In this document: positions 1-4,880 of the stretch, one piece after another
Numbering within the stretch: position 1 is the stretch's first letter
Layout: every line of letters begins with the position of its first letter
Assembly (NCBI GenBank): GCA_027045065.1
Contig: JALUBE010000171.1
Span: forward strand, 1-43,929
DNA from: Desulfurellales bacterium
GTDB taxonomy: Bacteria > Campylobacterota_A > Desulfurellia > Desulfurellales > Hippeaceae
Length of the DNA stretch: 43,929 bases
Reading direction: 5' to 3'
Made by a program: the position numbers and the translations under genes
Notes under the pieces: model-generated
What the model was told of the DNA's origin: nothing
Databases searched by the model: none
Seen by the model: the letters and a program-made list of their open reading frames with translations, nothing else

Positions 1-524
1 TCCAAAGTGTGACAAGCTCCATAAACAAACACAACACCGACAAGAGACATTACAAGTCCCACAGAGACTATAATTATATATCTCCAGGCAGACTCTATTG
101 CAGGCTCGTCATTGTCAATCGCAACAAGTAAGGCGCTTGTTATAGTGGTAGCCTCTATACCCACCCATATTAAACCCAAATTCTTAACCACAACACTAAA
201 CAGCATGGAAAGGATAAATAGATTTAAATAGAGAAAATAAAAGTTCTTCTTAAGAAGAGGCTTTTCCACATGTTTCAGATAAGTTATGGAAAAGAGCACT
301 GTTGTCAGATAGATAAACGAAATTAAAACTACCATGATTTTTGAAAAACCGTCTATAAACAGATAGCCCGCACTCACATTGGGTTTAAGAAGAATAATTA
401 TGGACAAAGCACTCACAATTAAACTCGATAAAACACTTACGAAGGCTGCGAGTGTATCTCTTTTAAAAACACACAAGAGAGAAGCAAAAACAAGGATAAT
501 AAAAGGAAAATAATAAACAAACAT
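1..524 (-). CDS. hyfF: Hydrogenase-4 subunit F-like / NuoL-family proton-translocating membrane subunit (partial, C-terminus beyond window)
   Basis: Minus-strand translation from ATG at 524: MFVYYFPFIILVFASLLCVFKRDTLAAFV...NLGLIWVGIEATTITSALLVAIDNDEPAIESAWRYIIIVSVGLVMS; hydrophobic NuoL/HyfF-type sequence directly downstream of hyfE-like and hyfC-like genes. Confidence 0.75.
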   Translation of the reverse strand, partial: MFVYYFPFIILVFASLLCVFKRDTLAAFVSVLSSLIVSALSIIILLKPNVSAGYLFIDGFSKIMVVLISFIYLTTVLFSITYLKHVEKPLLKKNFYFLYLNLFILSMLFSVVVKNLGLIWVGIEATTITSALLVAIDNDEPAIESAWRYIIIVSVGLVMSLVGVVFVYGACHTL

Positions 525-2110: not shown

Positions 2111-2144
2111 TAGACACCTCCCGCAAAAACTATATAGACCCTTA

Positions 2145-2212
2145 TGCAGGGGTTATCGGCTCTTCTGGGAATTAAAAGAAGAGCGGTTTAAGGCGAACCC
2201 CACCGCCTTCAA
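2145..2212 (-). ncRNA. Fluoride (crcB-type) riboswitch aptamer candidate in the hyfC leader
   Basis: Minus-strand RNA AGGCGGTGGGGTTCGCCTTAAACCGCTCTTC-TTTTAATTCCCA-GAAGAGCCGATAACCCCTGC: P1 AGGCG/CGCCT, long hairpin CGCTCTTC/GAAGAGC(C)G, and loop GGGGTT complementary to AACCCC (pseudoknot). Matches the remembered fluoride aptamer layout (GGCGATGG.GTTCGCC...AACCGC...GCTGAT.ACNCC). Confidence 0.8.
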
Positions 2213-2224
2213 CCTTGAAGGTGC

Positions 2225-2252
2225 ATTATACAAAAAACTTCTATTCAGTCAA
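2225..2252 (-). promoter_or_regulatory. Sigma70-like promoter for riboswitch/hyfC transcript
   Basis: Minus strand TTGACT (2252-2247) - 16 nt - TATAAT (2230-2225), placing the start about 7 nt downstream, just before the riboswitch aptamer. Confidence 0.65.
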
Positions 2253-2334
2253 TTTTAAAAATACTCCAAAAATAACGCATTCTAAAGCAACAAATTAAGT
2301 TCAAACAAATAGCACAAGAAAACAAACAAATGCT

Positions 2335-2388: not shown

Positions 2389-4047
2389 ATGGATGTCATT
2401 GGCATAAGTTCTGCGATTTTCATTATTTACTTCATAATCATGTTGATCATATACTTTACAGCTAAAAGCATTTTGCTAATCGCTTTTATTATTCTATCAC
2501 CCCTATTCTTTGGCATTTTCCTGTTCTATTACTACAAAACATTCATAAAACCACTCAAAGATCTGGATAAGTTTTGTAGCACAAGGCTTTGCTCTACATA
2601 CGATCTAACAGACAGACTCCCTAAACCACCGAAGCCACTGAGTTTTCTAAATCTCATGAATTCGTTTATTAAAAATGTTCAGGAGGCTTTGAAGAAAACA
2701 CTCAAGGTTTCAAACAACGTGGCCACGCAGGCAGCTAAGGTGAGTTTCAACGCTGAAAGGATATCGGGGAATGTAAAAAGGGAAGCCGAAGGCATGGAAG
2801 AAATCAAGGCAACGATGGATGAAATAAAAGACACGATAAATAGCGTTACACAGAACATAGCCAACACGTCGGATTTCATGCAAAAGGTAAACGATCTGGC
2901 AAAAGACGGCTCCGATAAAGCGTTGCTCGCCATACAAAAAATAGAGGCAATAGCAAAGGAGACGAAGAACAACGCAGAGATGATGAAAAAACTTGGTGCG
3001 TCATCGGAAGAAATCGGGAAAATTGTGGAAGTAATCAATGAAATCACAGATCAAACGGCACTTCTGTCTCTAAATGCTGCCATTGAAGCAGCTCGCGCAG
3101 GTGAAGCGGGCAGGGGCTTTGCCGTCGTTGCAGATGAGATCAGAAAACTGGCAGATAAAACAGCACAATCTACAGAACAGATTAGACAAATCGTCTCTAA
3201 AACCCAAAACGAAACCCAATCAACAATTGAAGCAACACTGAGCTTGATAGACAGGGTGGATGAGGGCAAGGAACTAATAAAAACCGCTTCAGATTCGCTC
3301 ATTGAGATAGCAAATGGCGTGCAAGAGGCAAGTAGGATGATAGAGGATGTGGCTTCGGCTGCCGAAGAACAGTCGTCGGCTATTGACATGATAGCAGAAA
3401 GAATTGACAAGATGACAGAGGACGTAACAAAATCTGCCGATAGGATCGAAAAAATCAGAGAAGACACATACAAGATTTCAAAGACCGCTGAGGAGCTCTT
3501 CACGTTTATGATCAAGTTCAGAACGGGGTCGTACATTGATAAAGTCTATTCAATTTTGCTCAACGCTAAGAAAGAAATAGAGGATACATTTGAAGAAGCT
3601 GTAAAAAATGGAATTATCTCGTCGGCCGATTTGTGGGATAGAAATTACGTTCCTGTTCCAAACACTAACCCGCAAAAATACAGAACCAGATTCACCGATT
3701 TTGCAAAGAAATACATACAACCCATAGAAGATAAGTATTTAGGAATGGATCCAAACTTTAAATTTGTAGTATTAGTGGATAACAATGGATACCTTCCGGC
3801 ACACAACACCATCTACGACAAGCCCTTAACCGGTGATTACGAAAAGGATTTGGTGGGCAACAGATCAATGCGAATATTCAACGATCCAACAGGACTTGCA
3901 GCAGCAAGAAACACTAACCCTGTACTCTTGCAGACGTACATGAGAGATACGGGCGTTGTAATGAATGACATCTCAGTTCCAATTTATTTTGAAGGTAAGC
4001 ATTGGGGTGGCTTGAGAATAGGCTTCATTTGGGAAAACGGTGAATAA
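2389..4047 (+). CDS. Methyl-accepting chemotaxis protein with C-terminal cytoplasmic sensor-like domain
   Basis: 552 aa; MCP tip [37 protein letters not shown]; after the signalling hairpin a further ~170 aa ([21 protein letters not shown]...[48 protein letters not shown]). Confidence 0.92.
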
Positions 4048-4880
4048 TGAAGGTTGTAAAAGCCGGTGGAGAAATAGAAGAATTCCAAGCGGACAAGCTA
4101 ATAGAGTCGCTAGTCCGCTCCGGTGCAAGCAGGGAAAAGGCAGAAGAGATCGCTGGGATTATCATAGAAAGGATACCCGATTATGTAACAACTCGTTTGA
4201 TTTATAAGTACGCAAAGGAATTACTTAAAAAATTAGATCACTCTTTCGCATCACGCTACTCTCTCAAAAAAGCCATGCTAAGACTTGGGCCAAGTGGTTA
4301 TCCCTTTGAACATTTCTTCGCCAACCTGTTGCACTTTTACGGGTTTGAAACGCAGGTTGATGTCATAGAAGAGGGAAAATGCATTCCCCATGAGATAGAC
4401 GTGCTCGCAACAAAAGAAGATCTTGTCGTGGCTGTTGAATGTAAATACCATTCATGTCCTTCAAGGGCTTCGGATTCAAAAGTTGCAATGTACGTCCATT
4501 CGCGTTTTGAGGATTTGGAAGAATCGCTAAAGAAAAAATACAAGAAAAGCAGGTTTGAAGGTTGGCTTGTCACAAACACAAGGCTTACAAATGAAGCAAA
4601 GAGGTTTGCAAAATGCTACGGTTTTAAAGCCATAGGTTGGCGATATCCAGAAGACGGTGGCCTTGAAAGGATTATAGAAGAAAAACACCTGTTCCCTGTT
4701 ACAACGCTTATTGGCATAAAACAAGCATTATTAAAGAAATTGTTGGAAAACAACATCGTATCAGTTAGACACTTCTTACAAACTGATGATAAAACGCTGA
4801 TCTCTTTTGGTTTTAACCACAAAAAGATCAAGCAGCTAAAAAAACAAGCTGAATCCTTGATTGAGTCTGCCTACAACTGA
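4047..4880 (+). CDS. ATP-cone domain protein fused to Mrr-like PD-(D/E)XK restriction endonuclease-like domain
   Basis: N-terminal ATP-cone-like [35 protein letters not shown]; nuclease motif HEIDVLATKEDLVVAVECKYH; C-terminal helix-hairpin-helix-like tail. Starts in the TAATG overlap with the MCP stop. Confidence 0.8.
   Translation: MKVVKAGGEIEEFQADKLIESLVRSGASREKAEEIAGIIIERIPDYVTTRLIYKYAKELLKKLDHSFASRYSLKKAMLRLGPSGYPFEHFFANLLHFYGFETQVDVIEEGKCIPHEIDVLATKEDLVVAVECKYHSCPSRASDSKVAMYVHSRFEDLEESLKKKYKKSRFEGWLVTNTRLTNEAKRFAKCYGFKAIGWRYPEDGGLERIIEEKHLFPVTTLIGIKQALLKKLLENNIVSVRHFLQTDDKTLISFGFNHKKIKQLKKQAESLIESAYN

Follow-up and report, generated by a model that had tools for sequence, protein, structure and literature searches.

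Why should a fluoride riboswitch stand before what looks like the membrane module of a hydrogenase, with no fluoride exporter beside it? The locus lies in a 43,929-nt stretch of DNA from a Desulfurellales bacterium (hereafter the window), in whose minus-strand leader the original prediction placed such an aptamer. We confirmed that a fluoride riboswitch precedes the hyfC-like gene of the window. An Rfam scan of the whole 44-kb window matched RF01734 at 2216-2140(-) with 41.3 bits (E=3.5e-8), above the gathering cut-off of 34 bits, and the match is full-length, covering model positions 1-64 of 64 without truncation. The same site was recovered in a whole-genome scan (E=2.8e-10), and the window holds two Rfam matches in all, this one and a tRNA. 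Every element that had been claimed for the aptamer was found (P1, the loop, the hairpin and the GGGGUU/AACCCC pseudoknot; Table 1), including the loop GUGGGGUU and the P3 hairpin. Among 40 aligned aptamers, the window's and 39 others, the pseudoknot is paired in 100% of cells, and four of its six pairs show changes on both sides in some of the aptamers. Covariation over the whole structure was 0.398 versus 0.193 when shuffled (0/500), and slid partners gave 0.168 or less. We consider a relic without function, or a match by chance, very improbable, as both the aptamer and its covariation are kept across the whole class and in other phyla, at a constant position.

Table 1. Features of the riboswitch-operon locus in the window, with subunit sizes from the operons of relatives.
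Feature	Position	Strand	Evidence or remark
Sigma-70-type promoter TTGACT-N16-TATAAT	2225..2252	-	11/12 consensus matches
Fluoride riboswitch aptamer (RF01734)	2140..2216	-	covariance model and covariation
P1 stem-loop GGCG (2207-2204) / CGCC (2195-2192)	2192..2207	-	paired in 99.4% of alignment cells
Pseudoknot 5' strand GGGGUU	2196..2201	-	partner 2154-2149
Pseudoknot 3' strand AACCCC, also predicted anti-Shine-Dalgarno	2149..2154	-	covariation; free-leader folding
Shine-Dalgarno GGGAGGTG of hyfC-like gene	2115..2122	-	predicted masked without fluoride
Gene 1, NuoH/HyfC-like membrane subunit, 316 aa	1160..2110	-	Pfam PF00146, 101.1 bits
Gene 2, HyfE-like membrane subunit, 211 aa	528..1163	-	NCBIfam hydrogenase-4 membrane subunit, 47.2 bits
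Gene 3, HyfF/NuoN-like antiporter-type subunit, 5' part only	1..524	-	174-aa open frame, contig end
Relatives' operon, sizes (aa)			NuoH/HyfC-like ~316, HyfE-like 211, HyfF/NuoN-like 458
Relatives' operon, sizes (aa)			NuoD-like 401, NuoB-like ~153, HyfB/NuoL-like 626

The promoter proposed at the aptamer is also borne out: its 3' end lies 8 nt upstream of the start of the RF01734 match, and similar boxes occur at the equivalent position in relatives. A terminator was sought between the aptamer and the first gene and none was found there, which rules out a transcription terminator as the expression platform. In partition-function folding of the window leader, the mean openness of the Shine-Dalgarno sequence was 0.14 in the free leader versus 0.68 with the pseudoknot held. 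Across 30 leaders the corresponding means were 0.16 and 0.50, with openness going up in 23 and down in none; holding the pseudoknot strand necessarily frees its partners, so these values count as support and not as proof. A longest-helix test of Shine-Dalgarno pairing was weak: shuffle p<=0.05 was reached by 11 of 33 leaders, the window not among them. Because the predicted fluoride-free fold pairs the pseudoknot 3' strand with the Shine-Dalgarno sequence, the riboswitch is likely a translational ON switch. According to this folding prediction, the binding of fluoride would lock the pseudoknot, free the Shine-Dalgarno sequence and activate translation.

The gene directly downstream of the aptamer encodes a NuoH/HyfC-type subunit, as had been predicted, and the matches to PF00146 and the hydrogenase-4 model agree with the Hyf/Ech-type membrane module claimed for this side of the locus. 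The window starts at the first base of its contig and the operon is therefore cut at coordinate 1, leaving just C, E and the beginning of F in sight; the open frame of gene 3 aligns with the N-terminal part of the HyfF-like protein of relatives. A search for the large subunit elsewhere in the same 1.53-Mb, 88.5%-complete genome did not find it. Since the operon of the window is incomplete, it was read in relatives, from which alone genes 4-6 (NuoD-like, NuoB-like and HyfB-like) are known. In relatives of the Hippea/Desulfurella class the operon has six genes in the order C-E-F-G-I-B, with no ferredoxin (HyfA/HyfH-type), formate dehydrogenase, CrcB or CLC gene among them, in keeping with the lack of an exporter noted originally. 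An exporter hidden further downstream is ruled out, as the operons of relatives stop after the HyfB-like gene. Normal NuoB genes were found at other sites in all four genomes tested. On the other side of the riboswitch leader, the window carries a divergent gene for a methyl-accepting chemotaxis protein (2389-4047(+)), followed by one for a protein with an ATP-cone and an Mrr-type nuclease domain (4047-4880(+)).

We compared the redox ligands across 80 related loci, which were picked out by two peptide patterns of the window clade and so are a biased sample of Ehr complexes. In the maximum-likelihood tree built from the 80 large subunits, the window clade comprises 29 rows, of which 24-25 enter the ligand columns; the window itself holds genes 1-3 only, and ligand loss is inferred from its relatives. 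Their large subunit reads SICGNFSFSH, compared with RVCGICGFAH in E. coli FHL and RMCGICSFSH in P. furiosus MBH, and their small subunit reads SNDNSLNFEI, compared with GSCNGCDIEI in MBH. Within the window clade the NiFe L1 CxxC has its second Cys in 0/25 members, and the C-terminal NiFe Cys pair is likewise found in 0/25; the first L1 Cys is kept in 24/25, which speaks against the ligand-loss reading. The four N2 columns hold Cys in 1/24, 0/24, 4/24 and 3/24 members, versus 98-100% in all other rows. Furthermore, the GPxH motif is altered (GPVT, GPVS etc.) in 25/25 large subunits of the clade, with loss of the quinone-site His of NuoD. AlphaFold models of the NuoB- and NuoD-like proteins are confident (pLDDT 86 and 93) and Foldseek matches them to the known NuoB/MbhJ and NuoD/HycE folds; we thus take both as intact folds without ligands. 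At Burkholderia and archaeal loci (L113, L117, L096), NuoB-like proteins have extra N-terminal Cys residues (C...CxxCxxC) that are absent from the window clade and possibly mark a fused ferredoxin domain.

These observations leave a standard group-4 [NiFe] hydrogenase (Hyf, Ech or formate hydrogenlyase) under fluoride control close to untenable. Hydrogenase-4 models do give the best scores for the membrane subunits, and the literature carries the annotation 'formate hydrogen lyase' (PMC2864571; PMC11139923), but every score falls under the NCBIfam equivalog cut-off and the NiFe ligands are incomplete in 25/25 members of the window clade. Ligand loss rules this identity out for the clade, the large subunit of the window being missing from the assembly. 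The original prediction of a group-4 hydrogenase does not survive the absence of NiFe ligands and N2 FeS ligands in relatives and of a ferredoxin gene in the operon, while its hint of an Ehr-like complex fits the group-4-like subunits without NiFe ligands that relatives encode. Inhibition of a metalloenzyme, offered as a rationale for the riboswitch, is unlikely because NiFe ligands, N2 ligands and ferredoxin subunit are all missing and the complex is not a group-4 hydrogenase.

Could the complex still carry electrons? A coupling of redox chemistry with ion transport has been proposed for Ehr complexes (PMC6349859), and the Burkholderia and archaeal clades retain the N2 Cys residues along with the extra N-terminal ones. 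We nevertheless consider it quite unlikely that the window clade encodes a genuine Ehr redox complex fed by some further partner or by a novel cofactor: all four N2 ligand columns and the GPxH histidine are lost and the operon has no FeS gene, so that electrons would have none of the known paths from NuoB to the membrane site.

Most of the lysines expected for ion movement are kept. The operon encodes two MrpA/D-type antiporter subunits that retain the TM7 and TM12 lysines: in the window clade the key Lys is found in 21/22 (TM7) and 22/22 (TM12) F subunits and in 23/24 (TM7) and 24/24 (TM12) B subunits. Against this, the TM5 Glu and one further site fit the motifs applied only in part. Lacking NiFe and N2 ligands and an FeS partner from the operon, the complex could hardly run as a redox pump, and secondary ion translocation is therefore the most likely activity; the conserved lysines together with the fluoride control point to ion translocation as well. 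Our main reading, to which we assign a probability of about 0.5, is that a fluoride ON riboswitch controls a ligand-less derivative of complex I and group-4 hydrogenases, most likely a fluoride-induced secondary ion translocator. Such a redox-free complex could in principle work as a cation/H+ antiporter in the manner of Mrp and, once induced by fluoride, would protect pH and the proton-motive force against the influx of HF. The defence against HF-driven acidification suggested originally is plausible. Na+/H+ antiporters rank next after exporters among riboswitch-linked genes (2024 review, PMC11139923). Two points count against antiport: a MrpB/E/F/G cation module appears to be missing from the operon, and simple antiport gives no reason for keeping NuoD-, NuoB- and NuoH-like subunits. 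A redox partner whose gene lies outside the operon is also conceivable.

How widely the riboswitch accompanies the operon was read from the same loci. The window clade spans Desulfurellales, Thermotogae/Mesoaciditoga, Bacteroidetes, a spirochaete and other bacteria, and a fluoride riboswitch lies just before the first gene in all 25 members whose 5' end is visible. The RF01734 scores were taken as the independent check because model R1 was partly trained on clade members; 19 of the 25 leaders score above the cut-off and six reach 27.4-32.7 bits at the correct place and on the correct strand. In the spirochaete a riboswitch precedes the operon on another contig too. The nine genomes of the genus each have two fluoride riboswitches, one before the operon and one before a dynamin-like GTPase (Pfam Dynamin_N), and the operon riboswitch extends to the order's other family and to one more family of the class. 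Outside the window clade, the Burkholderia/Rhodanobacter clade has the riboswitch at 10/10 loci (mapped by contig offset), with the N2 ligands kept and the NiFe ligands lost. The archaeal clade has it at four loci (L089, L096, L097 and L098) and at none of the remaining ones, and the remaining Ehr clade (Verrucomicrobia, Acidobacteria, Methanoperedens and others) solely at an Elusimicrobia locus (L103). Two marks go with the riboswitch: the genes run C-E-F-G-I-B, and the GPxH histidine is lost. This histidine is missing at 35/36 riboswitch loci and kept at 17/28 loci without one; the Fisher value for these counts takes no account of shared ancestry and is purely descriptive. At the level of sequence, the link between riboswitch and operon is conserved across phyla.

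The operon is included in fluoride islands of Burkholderia, Bacteroidetes and archaea. On a Burkholderia cenocepacia plasmid, ppa, eno, NUDIX, mutS, dynamin and DUF190 genes, the NiFe-less operon, crcB and a CLC gene lie within 30 kb, together with nine fluoride riboswitches, one of them directly before the operon. Resistance has been shown for an Enterobacter island in which a fluoride riboswitch governs crcB, eno and ppaC (PMC5533749), and no NiFe-less complex lies in it. Two MAGs labelled Nitrosopumilaceae have 8 and 7 fluoride riboswitches clustered on one contig (L096, G092:C57; L097, G093:C37), where one precedes an Ehr-type operon and crcB is on the same contig, with enolase nearby in L097.

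Does the complex itself export fluoride, coupled to H+ or a cation, in place of CrcB? CrcB (PF02537) was found in 0/25 genomes of the phylum, with the same search positive in 10/14 control genomes, and it is likewise absent from six Thermotogae-type genomes and the spirochaete; a CrcB elsewhere under another riboswitch is thus ruled out within the phylum (25 genomes). The other riboswitch genes examined in Thermotogae-type genomes encode MutS-like, MoxR and DUF6062 proteins and no transporter. Such an export role is nonetheless unlikely. No antiporter-like subunit is known to carry anything but H+ or Na+, the complex adjoins CrcB in Burkholderia and Bacteroidetes, and CLC proteins occur in every genome of the phylum searched. 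Some of these CLCs may be fluoride exporters, although the one tested scores best with the Cl-/H+ type ClcA; no CLC gene was seen directly downstream of a riboswitch.

Several neighbouring associations deserve mention in their own right. At Desulfurella-type loci (L054:112-1941, L171) a CLC gene is divergent from the riboswitch-operon leader, apparently broken in G017. The second fluoride riboswitch of the window's genome (L001:67-132, G000:C8) precedes the dynamin-like GTPase, a pairing that recurs in the class and in Bacteroidetes and Burkholderia islands and for which the open-access literature searched yielded no paper. Another Desulfurella-type locus (L055:7959-13970) has a dynamin - MutS-like - MutS-like - enolase operon under a fluoride riboswitch. 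In CrcB-less Mesoaciditoga/Thermotogae-type genomes a fluoride riboswitch precedes the gene of a MoxR-type AAA ATPase, which two more genes follow (L179:361-3974, L181, L186, L189), both of these without a Pfam match in L179. Additionally, one Thermotogae-type genome has a DUF6062 protein gene under a fluoride riboswitch (L184:3264-3998), and similar 'GCPVC' proteins occur in Bacteroidetes islands.

The suspicion that this gene association had been catalogued before was correct. 'Formate hydrogen lyase' appears among the genes of the crcB motif, with mutS and ion transport (Weinberg 2010, PMC2864571), and the riboswitch, this link and Ehr complexes as a class are all already known. The published genes and the NiFe-less operon are probably the same family, since the Burkholderia plasmid island matches the 2010 list, with mutS, CLC and the operon together. 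In the open-access literature, outside which most subscription papers lie, we found no paper joining fluoride riboswitches with Ehr complexes and none on a redox-ligand-free Ehr branch. The link between fluoride and 'formate hydrogenlyase' has had no convincing reason since 2010; given the loss of ligands, the point to explain is no longer why a hydrogenase is there but which ion the complex moves. Our data suggest a fluoride-resistance ion transporter that was misread as a formate hydrogenlyase. More tentatively, this redox-dead derivative of complex I and energy-converting hydrogenases may be a fluoride-inducible transporter, of fluoride or of H+/cations, that serves as the main transport component of the response to fluoride in CrcB-less bacteria. 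If true, complex-I-type membrane arms could work without electron transfer while still carrying a NuoB/NuoD/NuoH scaffold, and nature provides a redox-free complex I scaffold in which ion movement by the membrane arm can be studied. A 2023 review of ammonia-oxidising archaea called the advantage of Ehr complexes unknown (PMC10432482); for some of them at least, a role that can be tested would now be at hand.

The riboswitch itself resembles the crcB motif (RF01734) in its full model match, P1, P3, pseudoknot and placement in a 5' leader, and differs from typical members in a platform predicted to mask the Shine-Dalgarno sequence rather than form a terminator and in a target that is not a known exporter. 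As they have no NiFe ligands, and those of the window clade no N2 ligands either, the complexes are not formate hydrogenlyases. Among solved structures, the large and small subunits are closest to those of E. coli FHL (7z0s) and P. furiosus MBH (6cfw), which retain the NiFe and FeS ligands that the window clade has lost. Compared with respiratory complex I, the operon lacks NuoE/F/G, NuoI, the N2 ligands and the quinone-site His of NuoD. Similar to the Mrp cation/H+ antiporters (PMC7419157), the complex is probably redox-free and has NuoL/NuoN-type subunits; unlike them it has NuoH-, NuoD- and NuoB-like subunits, and its operon has no separate MrpB/C/E/F/G cation-module genes, part of which the HyfE-like subunit may equal. 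With Ehr complexes (PMC10432482, PMC6349859) the window clade shares group-4-like subunits and the absence of the NiFe CxxC. Beyond this, it has lost the N2 FeS site as well as the histidine of GPxH; its operon, which follows a fluoride riboswitch, runs C-E-F-G-I-B where that of Ehr runs B-C-E-F-G-I.
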